In this document: positions 57,248 through 63,961 of the stretch, piece after piece | Position numbering within the stretch: position 1 is the first letter of the stretch | Layout: each line of letters begins with the position of its first letter | Origin: Deltaproteobacteria bacterium | GTDB lineage: Bacteria; Myxococcota_A; UBA9160; PR03 | Length of the DNA stretch: 64,000 nucleotides | NCBI GenBank assembly: GCA_035063765.1 | Contig: JAPSFT010000011.1 | Location: forward strand, 1-64,000 | Direction: 5' to 3' | Made by a program: the position numbers and the translations under genes | Notes under the pieces: model-generated | Database searches by the model: none | Told to the model about the DNA's origin: nothing | The model's input: the letters and a program-made list of their open reading frames with translations, nothing else

Positions 57248-58459
57248 TCACCATGCGTTCCGCAGCGCCGACGGTCCGGCCGAAGATCGCGTCCCGGCGG
57301 CTGCGGCTCCGACCGCGACCGCCACCAGCTCGAGGTCGGTGTCGCACGCGCCGCTCTCGACGAGCGCCGTGAGCTCCTTCGCGAGCGCCGGATCGAACTG
57401 GCGGCCCGCCTCCTGGCGCAGCTCGGCGAGCGCGGCGCCCTGCGTGCGCGCTCGGCGCCAGGGGCGGTCGCTCGTCATCGCGTCGAAGGCGTCGGCCACC
57501 TGGACGATGCGGGCGCCGAGCGGGATCGCCTCGCCGGCCTTGCCGTCGGGATAGCCGCAGCCGTCCCAGCGCTCGTGGTGGGACCGGACCGCCGCGACGA
57601 CGCCCTCGCCGAGCCCGAGCGGCTCGAGCAGGCGGCCCCCGATCTCGGGATGCTGCTCGACGATGCGGCGTTCCATCTCGGAGAGCTCGCCGCGGCGCAC
57701 GAGCAGGTCGGTGGGCACGCCGATCTTGCCGACGTCGTGCAGGAAGGCCGCGACGCGGGTCGCCCGCTTCTGCTCGTCGGGGAGGCCGAGGCGATCTGCG
57801 AGCAGGGTCGCAAAGAACGCGACGCGCCTGCCGTGGCCGCGCCGGTAGGGATCCTGTCCCTCCACGGTCTGGGCGAGGCGCTCGAAGAAGGGCAGCACGC
57901 GGTCCGCGTCGAAGCTGTCCGCGGGCGGCAGCTCGGTGACCTGCCTGGCCAGCAGCTCGCCGAGCCGCCCGCGCAGATCCGCGCTCCCCTCCACCCGCTC
58001 GAGGATGCTCCGCACGTCGGCGTCACGGCCGACCAGGTCGCCGAGATCCTCCAGGAACTGCACCAGGCGGGTCCGCCCGCGCCGGCGGCTGAGGGCACGC
58101 TGGACGGCCGTGCTCACCTGCATCACGTCGAAGGGCTTCTGGAGATAGTCCGCGACTCCCCAGCGGATGCCCTCGGTCGCGGACTCGATGCTTCCCTGCC
58201 CGGTGATCACGATCAGCTCGACGTCGGGGAACTCGCCGCGGAGCTTGCGCATCAGCTCCGCGCCCCGCAGGCCGGGCATCGCCAGGTCGAGGGTCACGAC
58301 GTCGACCGGCGTCGCGCGCAGCGCCTCGACGGCCTCGGCGCCGCTGCCGACCGCGAGCACGCGGTACGCCGGCGACAGGATCATGCGGAGCGACTCGCGC
58401 GGACCGCGTTCGTCGTCCACCACCAGGACGGTGGCTCGGTGCTTGCTCCGATCGGACAC
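57248..58459 (-). CDS. Response regulator with HD-GYP phosphodiesterase
   Basis: A 403-residue protein. Residues 10-125 are a receiver: phosphoacceptor Asp58 in TLDLAMPG, LVVDDERG acidic pocket and QKPF Lys. After a linker, residues about 190-380 form an HD-GYP domain: HDVGKIGVPTD (residues 241-251) and HHERWDGCGYPDG (294-306). The intact HD and GYP residues indicate an active cyclic-di-GMP phosphodiesterase. GTG 58459 preceded by GGAGGC. A sigma54 promoter lies at 58506, 47 bases before the start. Confidence 0.93.
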   Translation of the reverse strand: MSDRSKHRATVLVVDDERGPRESLRMILSPAYRVLAVGSGAEAVEALRATPVDVVTLDLAMPGLRGAELMRKLRGEFPDVELIVITGQGSIESATEGIRWGVADYLQKPFDVMQVSTAVQRALSRRRGRTRLVQFLEDLGDLVGRDADVRSILERVEGSADLRGRLGELLARQVTELPPADSFDADRVLPFFERLAQTVEGQDPYRRGHGRRVAFFATLLADRLGLPDEQKRATRVAAFLHDVGKIGVPTDLLVRRGELSEMERRIVEQHPEIGGRLLEPLGLGEGVVAAVRSHHERWDGCGYPDGKAGEAIPLGARIVQVADAFDAMTSDRPWRRARTQGAALAELRQEAGRQFDPALAKELTALVESGACDTDLELVAVAVGAAAAGTRSSAGPSALRNAW

Positions 58460-58505
58460 GGGGAGCCTCCGGGGTTGGCCTCGCGTGCGACCCGGCGGGG
58501 TTTCC

Positions 58506-58521
58506 GCAAGCGCCGTGCCAA
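58506..58521 (-). promoter_or_regulatory. Sigma54 promoter of HD-GYP gene
   Basis: On the minus strand TTGGCACGGCGCTTGC matches the sigma54 consensus TGGCACG-N4-TTGC at every fixed base, with ten bases between GG and GC. Transcription would start about 36 bases before the HD-GYP GTG at 58459. An NtrC-type activator is the next gene upstream. The rest of the 250-base gap shows no gene. Confidence 0.85.
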
Positions 58522-58709
58522 CCTCGGAAGGATGTGCAGGAGAAAGGTCAACCCACTGGAGTAGAAGGGATTTCCATGAGGCCACCGGGGCTGACGCGGC
58601 GTTCGGGAATCGTTCCGCCAGGAACAGCCACTTGCTGCCGGCGCACCCAAGTCCGCGGTTCCGATGGGAAAGAGACGGCGTTCCAGACCGAACACGGGTC
58701 CCGGTCCGT

Positions 58710-60077
<1,368 letters not shown>

Positions 60078-60110: not shown

Positions 60111-62084
60111 TCAGGGCGCGGGAAGCTCGATCAGCACGAGCGTCTCGCCGGGCTCTCCGGGCTCGACGGCGAACGAGCCGCGATGGGCCCGCACGACCGC
60201 CTCGACCACCGCCACCGCGAGCGTGTTCTCGCTCATCCGCAGCGCGAGGTCCGGCGTCGTGCCCGCGCCGCGCGAGCGCAGGAGCACGCGGAGCCGGGCG
60301 GCGCCCGTGCCCTCGCCGCCGTGGTGGCGCGTCCCGAGGTAGAGGTCCCCCTGGTCGGGCAGGGAGGCGAGCGTCTCCTCGAGCAGCAGGCCGAGCGCGA
60401 AGCGAAGCTGCTCGAGATCCCCGAGCGCGAGCGGGTGCTCGCGGTCGAGCTCCTCGAGCACCACCAGGCGGTGCTCCTGGACGCGCGCGGTCTGGAGCTG
60501 GAGCAGGCGGGCGAGCAGCGCCGACACGTCGACCGGCTCGCGCGCGGGCGCCGGCAGCCAGCCGAGCCGCGCGAGCGTCTCCACCACCGCCTCGATGCGC
60601 CGCGTGTCGGCCTCGACGCGCTCGGCGAACTGGGCGCGGAACTCGGGGTCGTCGAAGCGGCCCGGCAGCATCTGCGCGAAGGTGCGGATGCCGACGAGCG
60701 GGTTGCCCACCTCGTGGGCGACGGCGGCGGCGAGGCGGCGGATGGGCGCGGGGTCGGAAGGAGGGGCGGCCGCGAGGGGCTCGGAGGTGACCAAGGGCGC
60801 GCGAGCACCGGCGCTCGCACTCGTCGCCGGCGCGCTGGCGTCCTCATGACTTCGCTCGCCTGCGGCTCGCTGCGCGCTCGCTGGGCTCGCTTGCTGCGGG
60901 GTCGCTCCGGCTGCCGGTGCCGGTGCCGGCGGCTGCGACTCGCTCGCGCAGGCCTCGCCGAGCGACTCGAAGACGAGCTCGCTGGCGGGGATCGGGTCGC
61001 GGGAGGCGGTGGCGAGCGTCCGGCGGACGACGGCTTCGAGCTCGCGGGCGTTGCCGGGCCACGCGTGGGCGTGGAGCACCGCGAGCGCGTCGTCGGCGAA
61101 GCGCGGGACCGGCCGGCCGGCGGGGCGCAGGGCGCCCCAGGCCCGAAGCGTCCCGGCCGCGATGCGGTCGATCGCGGCGGGCCGCTCGCGCAGGGGCGGG
61201 ATGCGCACGACGAGTCCCGCGAGTGCGCTCGCGAGGGCGGGCTCGAGCCGGTCCTCCACGGCCGGGTCGCCGGCGGTTGCCATCCAGCGCACGGCGGCGG
61301 CCGGCAGCGCCCCGGGCGGCGGGCCGTCCTCGATCCAGCCGGCGAGCCGGTGCTGGGCCGTGGGATCGAGCGCGTCGGCCGCCTCGACGCAGACGGTGAG
61401 CACACCCGCCGGCCCCGGCGACTCCGGCACCAGGCCGGCGAGCAACGCGGCGGGCTCGAGCCCGTGCGCGCCCGTGACGCTTGCGAAGGCGCCGGGCGAC
61501 GCGCCGCCGAGGCCCGCCTGGAGGTGCAGGGTCCGGGCCAGGAGTCCCCGCCCGGTGCCGCCCTCGCCGCGTACCAGGAGCGGGAGCTGGCGGCGGGCGG
61601 GGTCGATCGCGGCGAGCAGCGCGCTCTCGTCGAGGTCCCCGAGCCAGCGCTCGAAGCGCGCCGCGAGCGCCTCGCGCCGGCTCCGTTCGGAGAGCGCGGC
61701 GGCGCCGCGCCGCGCGAGCGCCGCGCGCAGCCGCTCGCGCAGCTCGCGCGCGTCGCTGGTGACCGTGACGACCTCGGCTGGGAGCGCGTCGAAGAGGCGG
61801 CGCGCCTCCGCGACGTCGCGCGGCTCGGCCAGGATCAGCCAGGAGGGACCCGGCCCGCCGCGCCGCGCGGACTCGCCGGCCAGGCGCGCGGCGGCGCCGT
61901 ACGCCCAGGCGAGCTCGACCTCGAAGTCGCCGCTGGCGCCGAGCAGCACGGCCCGCGGAGCGGGCTCGCTGGCGAGCGCGCCTGCCTCCCCCGGGTCGGC
62001 GACGAGCGGCGTGCCGCCCACGAGTCGCCGCAGCGCCTCGCGCCACCGGGGGTCGCGGTGCACGATCCACAGCCTCGCCGCCAC
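60111..62084 (-). CDS. Kinase with degenerate REC and AAA+ domains
   Basis: A 657-residue protein of unusual make-up. Residues 1-115 resemble a receiver but lack a phosphoacceptor Asp. Residues about 130-380 are like an NtrC AAA+ module: GEGGTGRG (173-180), IPPLRERP (295-302) and HAWPGNARELE (340-350). It has no GAFTGA loop and a poor Walker B. A Pro/Ala linker follows. A HisKA helix has His457 in AHEVGNPLVG. The ATP-binding domain is degenerate (no clear N-box Asn). It may be a sensor that binds the partner NtrC by a decoy AAA+ module. GTG start with GGAG 9 bases away. Confidence 0.78.
   Translation of the reverse strand: MAARLWIVHRDPRWREALRRLVGGTPLVADPGEAGALASEPAPRAVLLGASGDFEVELAWAYGAAARLAGESARRGGPGPSWLILAEPRDVAEARRLFDALPAEVVTVTSDARELRERLRAALARRGAAALSERSRREALAARFERWLGDLDESALLAAIDPARRQLPLLVRGEGGTGRGLLARTLHLQAGLGGASPGAFASVTGAHGLEPAALLAGLVPESPGPAGVLTVCVEAADALDPTAQHRLAGWIEDGPPPGALPAAAVRWMATAGDPAVEDRLEPALASALAGLVVRIPPLRERPAAIDRIAAGTLRAWGALRPAGRPVPRFADDALAVLHAHAWPGNARELEAVVRRTLATASRDPIPASELVFESLGEACASESQPPAPAPAAGATPQQASPASAQRAAGERSHEDASAPATSASAGARAPLVTSEPLAAAPPSDPAPIRRLAAAVAHEVGNPLVGIRTFAQMLPGRFDDPEFRAQFAERVEADTRRIEAVVETLARLGWLPAPAREPVDVSALLARLLQLQTARVQEHRLVVLEELDREHPLALGDLEQLRFALGLLLEETLASLPDQGDLYLGTRHHGGEGTGAARLRVLLRSRGAGTTPDLALRMSENTLAVAVVEAVVRAHRGSFAVEPGEPGETLVLIELPAP
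60851..60876. repeat. 26-bp dispersed repeat, copy B
   Basis: TTCGCTCGCCTGCGGCTCGC followed by TGCGCG matches the minus strand of 16933-16958 at 25 of 26 positions. Here it is read in frame in the Pro/Ala/Ser linker of the kinase. This would be an unusual place for a REP-type insertion. Confidence 0.45.
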
Positions 62085-62156: not shown

Positions 62157-62371
62157 GGGTGGCGCGGGAGTGCGCGATCCGCAGCTCGGGTGCAGTGCCT
62201 CGCCCAAGGTCTGTCGCGCCCGGCGGAAGTCGGTTCCGGCCGGCGACCGTCGCGCCGTGCCCGGCCCCGGGCTCGCTGCGCGCGCGGAGGCAGGGAGCTG
62301 TCCAAAGTGGGAAGCGCGCGGGAGCTTCCTTGCTGGGGGTGGGGGGCTCTGCCAGAGTAGGCGCCAACCCC

Positions 62372-63961
62372 ATGGCGGCACTCCACGGCGCGAGCGAAGT
62401 CCTCGGCTCCGGCGCGGATCCGGCCCCGTCCGTCCGCGACGGTGGCCCGGAGGTCCGGCTCCGCAACGGGTTCGAGCGCCCCTACGACGACGCGATCGCC
62501 GCCGCCCGCACCTGCTACTCGCCGCGCGTCATCGAGGCCGGCGAGGTCACGGCCCGCCAGCGCCGCCAGATCGGCCCGCTCACCTTCCAGGGCGGACACC
62601 ACACGGTGTACCAGCACGCAACCTTCGAGTTCTCGCTCTCGGGGGTGTCGCGCCAGCTCGTCTGGTGCTTCCTGCACGCCTTTCCCTTCTACAACACCGA
62701 GCAGCAGAGCCAGCGCTACGTGCGCCTCGACGAGCCGCGCGCGCACGTCCCGCCCGCCCTGCGCGGCGAGGCGCGCGAGCTCTACGTGGGCGCCATCGAG
62801 CGCGCCTGGCAGGCGTACCGCGAGCTGACGCAGCGGCTGGTCCCGGTGACGCGCGGGATCCTGTCGGGGCTCTGGCGCCTCGACCGGCGCAAACAGACGG
62901 CCTTCGCGCGCGACGTCGCCCGCGAGGCCGAGAAGAAGGCGATCGAGACCGCCCGCTACGTGATCCCGATCGCCTGCCACACGGCGATGGTCTACACGGT
63001 CTCGGGGCTGGTGCTGCACCGCCTGCGCCGGATGGCCGCCGCCAGCGACGCGCCCGACGAGGCGCGCGACGTGGTGGGCCGCATGGTCGCCCTGGTGGAG
63101 CGCGTCGACCCGGCCTTCTTCTCGGAGGTGGGCGACCCCCCGCGCGCCGGCGACGAGGTGGTCGAGAGCCGGACGGCGCCGGCGCGCGTCGGCGACGCCG
63201 CCGCGGCCGCCGCCTTCGACGCCGCGCTCGGCGGGCGCCGCTCGCTGCTCGTCGACTGGGGCGCCCGCGCGCCGCAGGTGGTGGCCGAGGCCGTGCGCCA
63301 CGTGCTGGGCCGTCCCGAGCTGTCGGACCCCGAGGCCCTGGCGCTGGCCCTCGACCCGGCGCGCAACCCGTACCGGCTCGACACCCTGAACGTCTCGACC
63401 CACGCCCCCGTGATGCGCGCGCTCGAGCACGCGCACTACACCTTCCGCAAGAAGCTCTCGCACACGGCCGACTCGCAGGACCAGCGCCACCGGATGGTGC
63501 CGGGGTCGCGGCCGCTGCTCTCGCGCACGGTGCCGGCCGCCGTCGACGTCGTCGAGCCGGAGCTGATCCGCGGTGACCCGGGCTGCCACGCGCTCTTCGT
63601 CGAGGCGGTGGAGGCAGCCTGGGACGCCCGGGCGCGGCTCCTGGCGCTCGGCGCCACGCCGGAGCTCGCGCTCTACGTGCTGCCCAACGCGCTGGCGGTG
63701 CGCTTCGAGGAGTCGGGCTCGCTCCTGCACCTGCTCCACAAGTGGACGATGCGCACCTGCTTCAACGCGCAGCGCGAGATCTACGAGGCCTCGCTGGACG
63801 AGCTGGCCCAGGTGCGCGCGCTGCACCCCGAGCTGGTGCGCCACGTGGGGCCTCCGTGCTTCGTGCGCGACGGCCTCGCCAGGCCGCGCTGCACCGAGGG
63901 CAGCCACTTCTGCGGCGTGCCCGTCTGGCGCAGCTTCCCCGACGTCGAGCGGAGCATCTGA
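62372..63961 (+). CDS. thyX: FAD-dependent thymidylate synthase, long form
   Basis: A 529-residue protein about twice the length of a normal ThyX (220-250). Two ThyX-like halves are seen. The first has QLVWCFLHAFPFYNTEQQSQRY, a variant of the RHR-x7-S-x-R(Y) signature. The second has SHTADSQDQRHRMVPGSRP and a C-terminal YVLPNALAVRFEESG. Long ThyX forms occur in some deltaproteobacteria-like genomes. Makes dTMP from dUMP using FADH2 and methylene-folate. Which half is active cannot be told. The stop overlaps the next start (TGATG). Confidence 0.82.
   Translation: MAALHGASEVLGSGADPAPSVRDGGPEVRLRNGFERPYDDAIAAARTCYSPRVIEAGEVTARQRRQIGPLTFQGGHHTVYQHATFEFSLSGVSRQLVWCFLHAFPFYNTEQQSQRYVRLDEPRAHVPPALRGEARELYVGAIERAWQAYRELTQRLVPVTRGILSGLWRLDRRKQTAFARDVAREAEKKAIETARYVIPIACHTAMVYTVSGLVLHRLRRMAAASDAPDEARDVVGRMVALVERVDPAFFSEVGDPPRAGDEVVESRTAPARVGDAAAAAAFDAALGGRRSLLVDWGARAPQVVAEAVRHVLGRPELSDPEALALALDPARNPYRLDTLNVSTHAPVMRALEHAHYTFRKKLSHTADSQDQRHRMVPGSRPLLSRTVPAAVDVVEPELIRGDPGCHALFVEAVEAAWDARARLLALGATPELALYVLPNALAVRFEESGSLLHLLHKWTMRTCFNAQREIYEASLDELAQVRALHPELVRHVGPPCFVRDGLARPRCTEGSHFCGVPVWRSFPDVERSI

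Follow-up and report, generated by a model that had tools for sequence, protein, structure and literature searches.

A conserved fusion of a degenerate NtrC-type AAA+ domain and a predicted kinase-dead HisKA module, a candidate controller of the adjacent NtrC-type regulator

Domain composition of the fusion protein and its neighbor

The window analyzed here is a 64,000-nucleotide stretch of contig JAPSFT010000011.1 from a Deltaproteobacteria bacterium. On its reverse strand, positions 60111..62084 contain a frame of 657 residues without a stop, read from 62084 to 60111 and beginning with GTG, that encodes a fusion of a pseudo-receiver, an NtrC-type pseudo-AAA+ domain, a linker, a HisKA (DHp) domain, and a pseudo-HATPase; in the alignment consensus, the starts of homologues nearly coincide with the start of this gene. 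An NtrC-type response regulator is encoded on the same strand (58710..60077), 33 bp downstream of the fusion. The original prediction had placed a real NtrC next to the fusion, and this neighbor is indeed intact, with matches to Response_reg, Sigma54_activat, AAA_lid_14, and HTH_8, a conserved Asp, and the Walker A motif GESGTGKE in 52 of 54 orthologues. This regulator reads GAFTDA in place of GAFTGA; among the 54 orthologues, 30 carry GAFTDA and 19 carry GAFTGA.

Two Pfam families matched the fusion protein above the cut-off, AAA_lid_14 (residues 322–374, E = 4.7e-10) and HisKA (residues 449–510, E = 8.5e-10). The Sigma54_activ_2 match was weak (E = 0.0093), no Pfam match was found for Response_reg or HATPase_c, and the HTH_8 DNA-binding domain, which is matched at 2e-13 in the adjacent regulator, had no Pfam match in the fusion. 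A family profile representing 63 homologues matched NtrX, a solved receiver-AAA+ protein, over positions 6–364 (3.4e-28), NtrC1 over positions 43–372 (4.6e-33), and ZraS over positions 428–643 (2.4e-13); sporulation kinase B and RetS were also matched, over about 430–649 (442–649 for RetS). The AlphaFold model, run on the 63-row alignment, has a mean pLDDT of 85.7 and presents two folded halves separated by a disordered linker at about residues 376–442. Foldseek matched the first half to receiver-AAA+ proteins, with VpsR as the top fold match, and the second half, which contains a Bergerat-like fold, to RetS, ZraS, and DivL. Pfam, profile, and model thus agree with the domain order originally proposed (an Asp-less receiver-like domain, then NtrC-type AAA+ and HisKA), the model and fold comparison show an AAA+ fold of NtrC type, and the regulator-shaped AAA+ domain and the HisKA domain are held in one chain. 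Judged from its sequence relationships, the NtrC AAA+ ancestry of the first half is clear.

The receiver-like domain (residues 1–124; 61713..62084), delimited by the model, the NtrX match, and alignment with the response regulator, is modeled as strands that alternate with helices and has Gly at the position of the phospho-acceptor Asp (PRAVLLGASG); homologues have Gly or another non-Asp residue at this position. The AAA+ domain (about residues 130–376; 60957..61695), supported by Pfam, profile, and alignment, has the Walker A sequence GEGGTGR, in which the Lys is replaced by Arg, as is the case in 64 of 67 homologues. Alignment with the adjacent regulator shows that the region of the GAFTGA loop is deleted, as had been predicted, and that the arginine-finger segment is replaced. 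The proposed lack of a good Walker B motif holds in part; the motif is eroded in the window copy (VEA) but is not simply absent, as many homologues have LED where NtrC has LDE. By these motifs, the AAA+ part is not a working σ54 activator. A disordered Pro/Ala-rich linker follows (about residues 377–442; 60759..60956), with pLDDT below 50 over most of residues 376–442.

The HisKA (DHp) domain (residues 449–510; 60555..60740), identified by Pfam and by conservation, carries His457 and Asn461 within HEVGNP, where the histidine had originally been placed, and is detected in 62 of 63 homologues at E = 0.01 or better. By contrast, the C-terminal pseudo-HATPase (about residues 515–657; 60111..60542) gave no HATPase_c match in any of the 63 homologues, while the positive control, an intact paralogue of the same genome, was matched at 6.9e-23. 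Alignments, including that with the intact paralogue, showed the N and G boxes to be absent in every orthologue inspected; the ATP domain that looked degenerate in the window copy is therefore degenerate family-wide, and autophosphorylation is improbable because these boxes are lost. A histidine kinase that works through an unusual ATP site would be in agreement with the presence of a HisKA domain with His457 and, usually, Glu458, and with the Bergerat-like fold in the model, but the loss of both boxes throughout the family is not in keeping with such an activity, and Glu458 is Ala in four of the 57 orthologues from genomes that also carry the regulator (and Asp in two); we consider a working kinase highly improbable.

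The fusion combines a degenerate HATPase with a kept H-box phosphatase residue (HExxT/N), as in RetS, and, by sequence and fold, a DHp with a Bergerat-like domain without ATP motifs, as in proteins of the ChpT/Spo0B type. Since the defining features of both enhancer-binding proteins and autokinases were looked for and are missing, the fusion, as judged from its motifs, belongs to neither group.

Distribution and gene neighborhood

Relatives of the fusion were found in 6/6 genomes of the family, 73/80 of the order, and 82/91 of the class, as single chains, usually in a single copy per genome and at full length where the contig allows; copies from the sister order scored 335–391 bits across the whole profile length. 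A fusion remnant and an assembly error had both been raised as explanations for this gene. Both are rejected, since the protein is kept under constraint across 82 of the 91 genomes of the class and is full length in dozens of independent genomes. A contig scan for the fusion in other phyla, run with exact short patterns by which distant relatives are missed, identified one full-length relative (L009), whose place on the contig is that of G001's. Four further loci with matches to both halves (L011, L018, L024, and L027) were rejected as fusions, as the matches correspond to adjacent, separate kinase and NtrC genes.

In both orders, the fusion gene is located between a thyX-like gene and tatA-tatC, which supports orthology across the two orders. 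In the main order, the fusion is separated from tatA-tatC by a cassette that comprises the NtrC-type regulator and, in many cases, an HD-GYP regulator; the sister order (L174–L182) lacks this cassette, and its tatA-tatC genes come directly after the fusion. The thyX-like neighbor, which adjoins the fusion in both orders, is divergently transcribed (62255–63961, forward strand) and encodes 568 amino acids with two Thy1 stretches (PF02511, 1.2e-50). The HD-GYP gene (57248–58585, reverse strand), found after the regulator in many genomes, encodes a receiver and HD-GYP protein with a match to a NosR-family c-di-GMP phosphodiesterase, and represents a possible link to c-di-GMP. Binding of c-di-GMP is known for the AAA+ proteins FleQ and VpsR; that the pseudo-AAA+ domain might bind c-di-GMP as well is a speculative idea, prompted by the first rank of VpsR among the fold matches and by the HD-GYP gene behind the regulator.

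Regulator orthologues scored at least 550 bits, at an identity of 60% or higher, with the next NtrC-type proteins reaching no more than 444 bits. In all 54 loci with a match, the regulator is on the same strand as the fusion, and in 50 of these it lies within 400 bp (median 67.5 bp). The seven genomes of the order that lack the fusion also lack a regulator orthologue (Fisher p = 1.7e-6, uncorrected for relatedness). Seven other genomes of the order (G016, G017, G018, G028, G029, G044, and G076) carry the fusion and lack the regulator. No regulator orthologue was found in the sister order at the 550-bit level, an apparent absence that is based on the score gap (at most 425 versus at least 550 bits) and on lost adjacency. 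Five genomes with a truncation or frame shift in the fusion or downstream of it (G011, G019, G024, G039, and G079) were set aside, and G009, with two regulator halves in neighboring frames, was counted as regulator-bearing.

Loss of His457 in genomes without the regulator

Both His457 and Asn461 are invariant in the 57 orthologues from regulator-bearing genomes. Among the 16 orthologues from regulator-less genomes, His457 is lost in 13 and kept in three, two of seven in the order (G018 and G028) and one of nine in the sister order (G090); Asn461 is kept in four of seven and none of nine, respectively. General decay was controlled for by comparing every one of the 37 sites that are near-invariant in regulator-bearing genomes; His457 was the site most often lost in regulator-less genomes. 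In the seven regulator-less genomes of the order, every near-invariant site except His457 and Asn461 is kept in at least five, and six or seven retain Walker A at residues 173, 176, 178, and 179. Residues 173, 176, and 179 are also mostly kept when regulator-less genomes of the order and the sister order are taken together, and R134, W342, L543, E545, and R603, invariant in the pseudo-AAA+ and pseudo-ATP domains, are mostly kept after loss of the regulator and His. In the sister order, several sites besides Asn461 are likewise kept in none of the nine genomes, and this order alone is therefore not specific for loss of the histidine. Because His457 is lost while Walker A is kept in the regulator-less genomes of the order, we interpret these sequence patterns as a specific loss of the histidine rather than general decay, and as an indication that the AAA+ part also serves something else; from the same kind of comparison, the DHp is judged not to be a remnant.

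These kept residues also bear on the mixed rings with the adjacent NtrC-type regulator that were raised with the original prediction, in which the pseudo-AAA+ domain would be a decoy that, once inserted, poisons or tunes the ring. Clear NtrC AAA+ ancestry and the conserved manner in which catalytic parts were lost would suit such a decoy, but as the only role it is unlikely, given that six or seven of the seven regulator-less genomes of the order retain the AAA+ invariants while five of them have lost His457; more than 20 other σ54 activators in the genome would, in addition, raise specificity problems. Overall, we regard the decoy as very unlikely.

In a phylogeny computed after removal of the columns around the histidine, regulator presence changes six times and the histidine seven times. 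About six losses of the histidine all fall within the regulator-less 27% of branch length, for which a rough estimate of the probability by chance is about 4e-4. Five independent pairs are found on supported branches; the histidine changes in the same way as the regulator in a median of four (range 2–5) and in the opposite way in none (sign test p = 0.06–0.5). The phylogenetically independent pairs of regulator and histidine are thus few, which counts against the explanation that we favor.

Candidate function and comparison with known systems

The fusion probably controls the adjacent regulator, most likely by switching it off rather than by powering it. In HisKA proteins, an acidic residue directly follows the His and an Asn or Thr is found four residues after it; in CrdS and other HisKA kinases, the Glu is needed only for kinase activity and the Asn/Thr only for phosphatase activity (PMC3510030). 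RetS, which has lost its G boxes and kept HExxT, has been demonstrated by experiment to act as a transmitter phosphatase (PMC5992135). Because Asn461 is invariant and Glu458 variable, and given the precedent of RetS, we rank a phosphatase first and a ChpT-like phosphotransferase second. As a transmitter phosphatase, the fusion would dimerize through its DHp, be unable to autophosphorylate, dock onto the adjacent regulator at its receiver domain, and remove its phosphate; dephosphorylation would set how long the σ54 activator stays on, and the phosphate itself may come from another kinase or from acetyl phosphate. The pseudo-receiver, pseudo-AAA+, and pseudo-ATP domains, because they persist in regulator-less genomes, may together serve in regulation or as a scaffold, in an older role independent of the regulator, a step with less support than the others. 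We give about an even chance to the general proposal of a conserved, doubly disarmed protein without kinase activity that works on the adjacent regulator by way of its DHp, most likely removing phosphate as the transmitter phosphatase RetS does. Its more detailed form, in which a disarmed NtrC activator has become one half, for sensing or as a scaffold, of a kinase-dead phosphatase dedicated to the co-encoded NtrC-type regulator, with an older, regulator-independent function for the pseudo-AAA+ and pseudo-ATP domains, is put forward tentatively, as something short of probable.

A role in phosphotransfer would keep the histidine too, and this counts against a phosphatase. Like ChpT or Spo0B, the fusion could take phosphate onto His457 from the receiver of another kinase and hand it to the adjacent regulator, with the pseudo-ATP domain being structural; the invariance of the histidine in the presence of the regulator would be explained, and ChpT likewise pairs a DHp with a non-ATP-binding Bergerat-fold domain (PMC3433190). 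However, Asn461 is as invariant as the histidine although this residue is needed for phosphatase activity, not phosphotransfer, in CrdS (PMC3510030), the receiver in the same chain lacks the Asp to act as donor, and no donor kinase was identified; we therefore view this phosphotransferase as unlikely, albeit not negligible. A partnership with an intact kinase, in which a heterodimer would lead either to phosphorylation of His457 in trans or to a blocked kinase, as for RetS with GacS, appears quite improbable; RetS and DivL are among the structural matches and the same genome encodes a close intact paralogue (L053), but no conserved adjacent gene for an intact kinase was found, the linkage being to the regulator gene.

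Taken separately, kinases and AAA+ proteins in disarmed form are already known. Here, both disarmed modules are found in one chain that is kept across two orders of uncultured bacteria, and natural losses separate two functions, as the histidine follows the neighboring regulator and the rest does not. The residual function of a pseudokinase thus becomes directly testable in one protein, for which genomes with and without the regulator represent a natural contrast set. The architecture was not found in the open-access literature or, above cut-off, in NCBIfam; within these sources, the combination, conserved across two orders, appears to be new, while each part is of a known kind.

With NtrC-family σ54 activators (NtrC1, NtrX, VpsR, and FleQ), the fusion shares the receiver-AAA+ order and fold, but it lacks the Asp, the Walker A Lys, GAFTGA, the Arg fingers, and the DNA-binding domain. 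Kinases of the AtoS/ZraS/CrdS type resemble it in the sequence and fold of the DHp; in the fusion, the ATP-binding boxes are lost and a pseudo receiver-AAA+ half replaces the sensor domain. ChpT and Spo0B share the DHp dimer and a Bergerat-like domain that does not bind ATP (PMC3433190 for ChpT), with the ATP motifs of the fusion judged by sequence; these proteins have no fused receiver-AAA+ part. The Pseudomonas aeruginosa pseudokinase RetS likewise combines a HisKA domain that has kept the His and the phosphatase motif with a degenerate HATPase without G boxes (PMC5992135). RetS differs in that its target is the receiver within the kinase GacS and in that it carries a working receiver of its own, whereas the other half of the fusion is a pseudo receiver-AAA+ module and its linked gene encodes an NtrC-type regulator.
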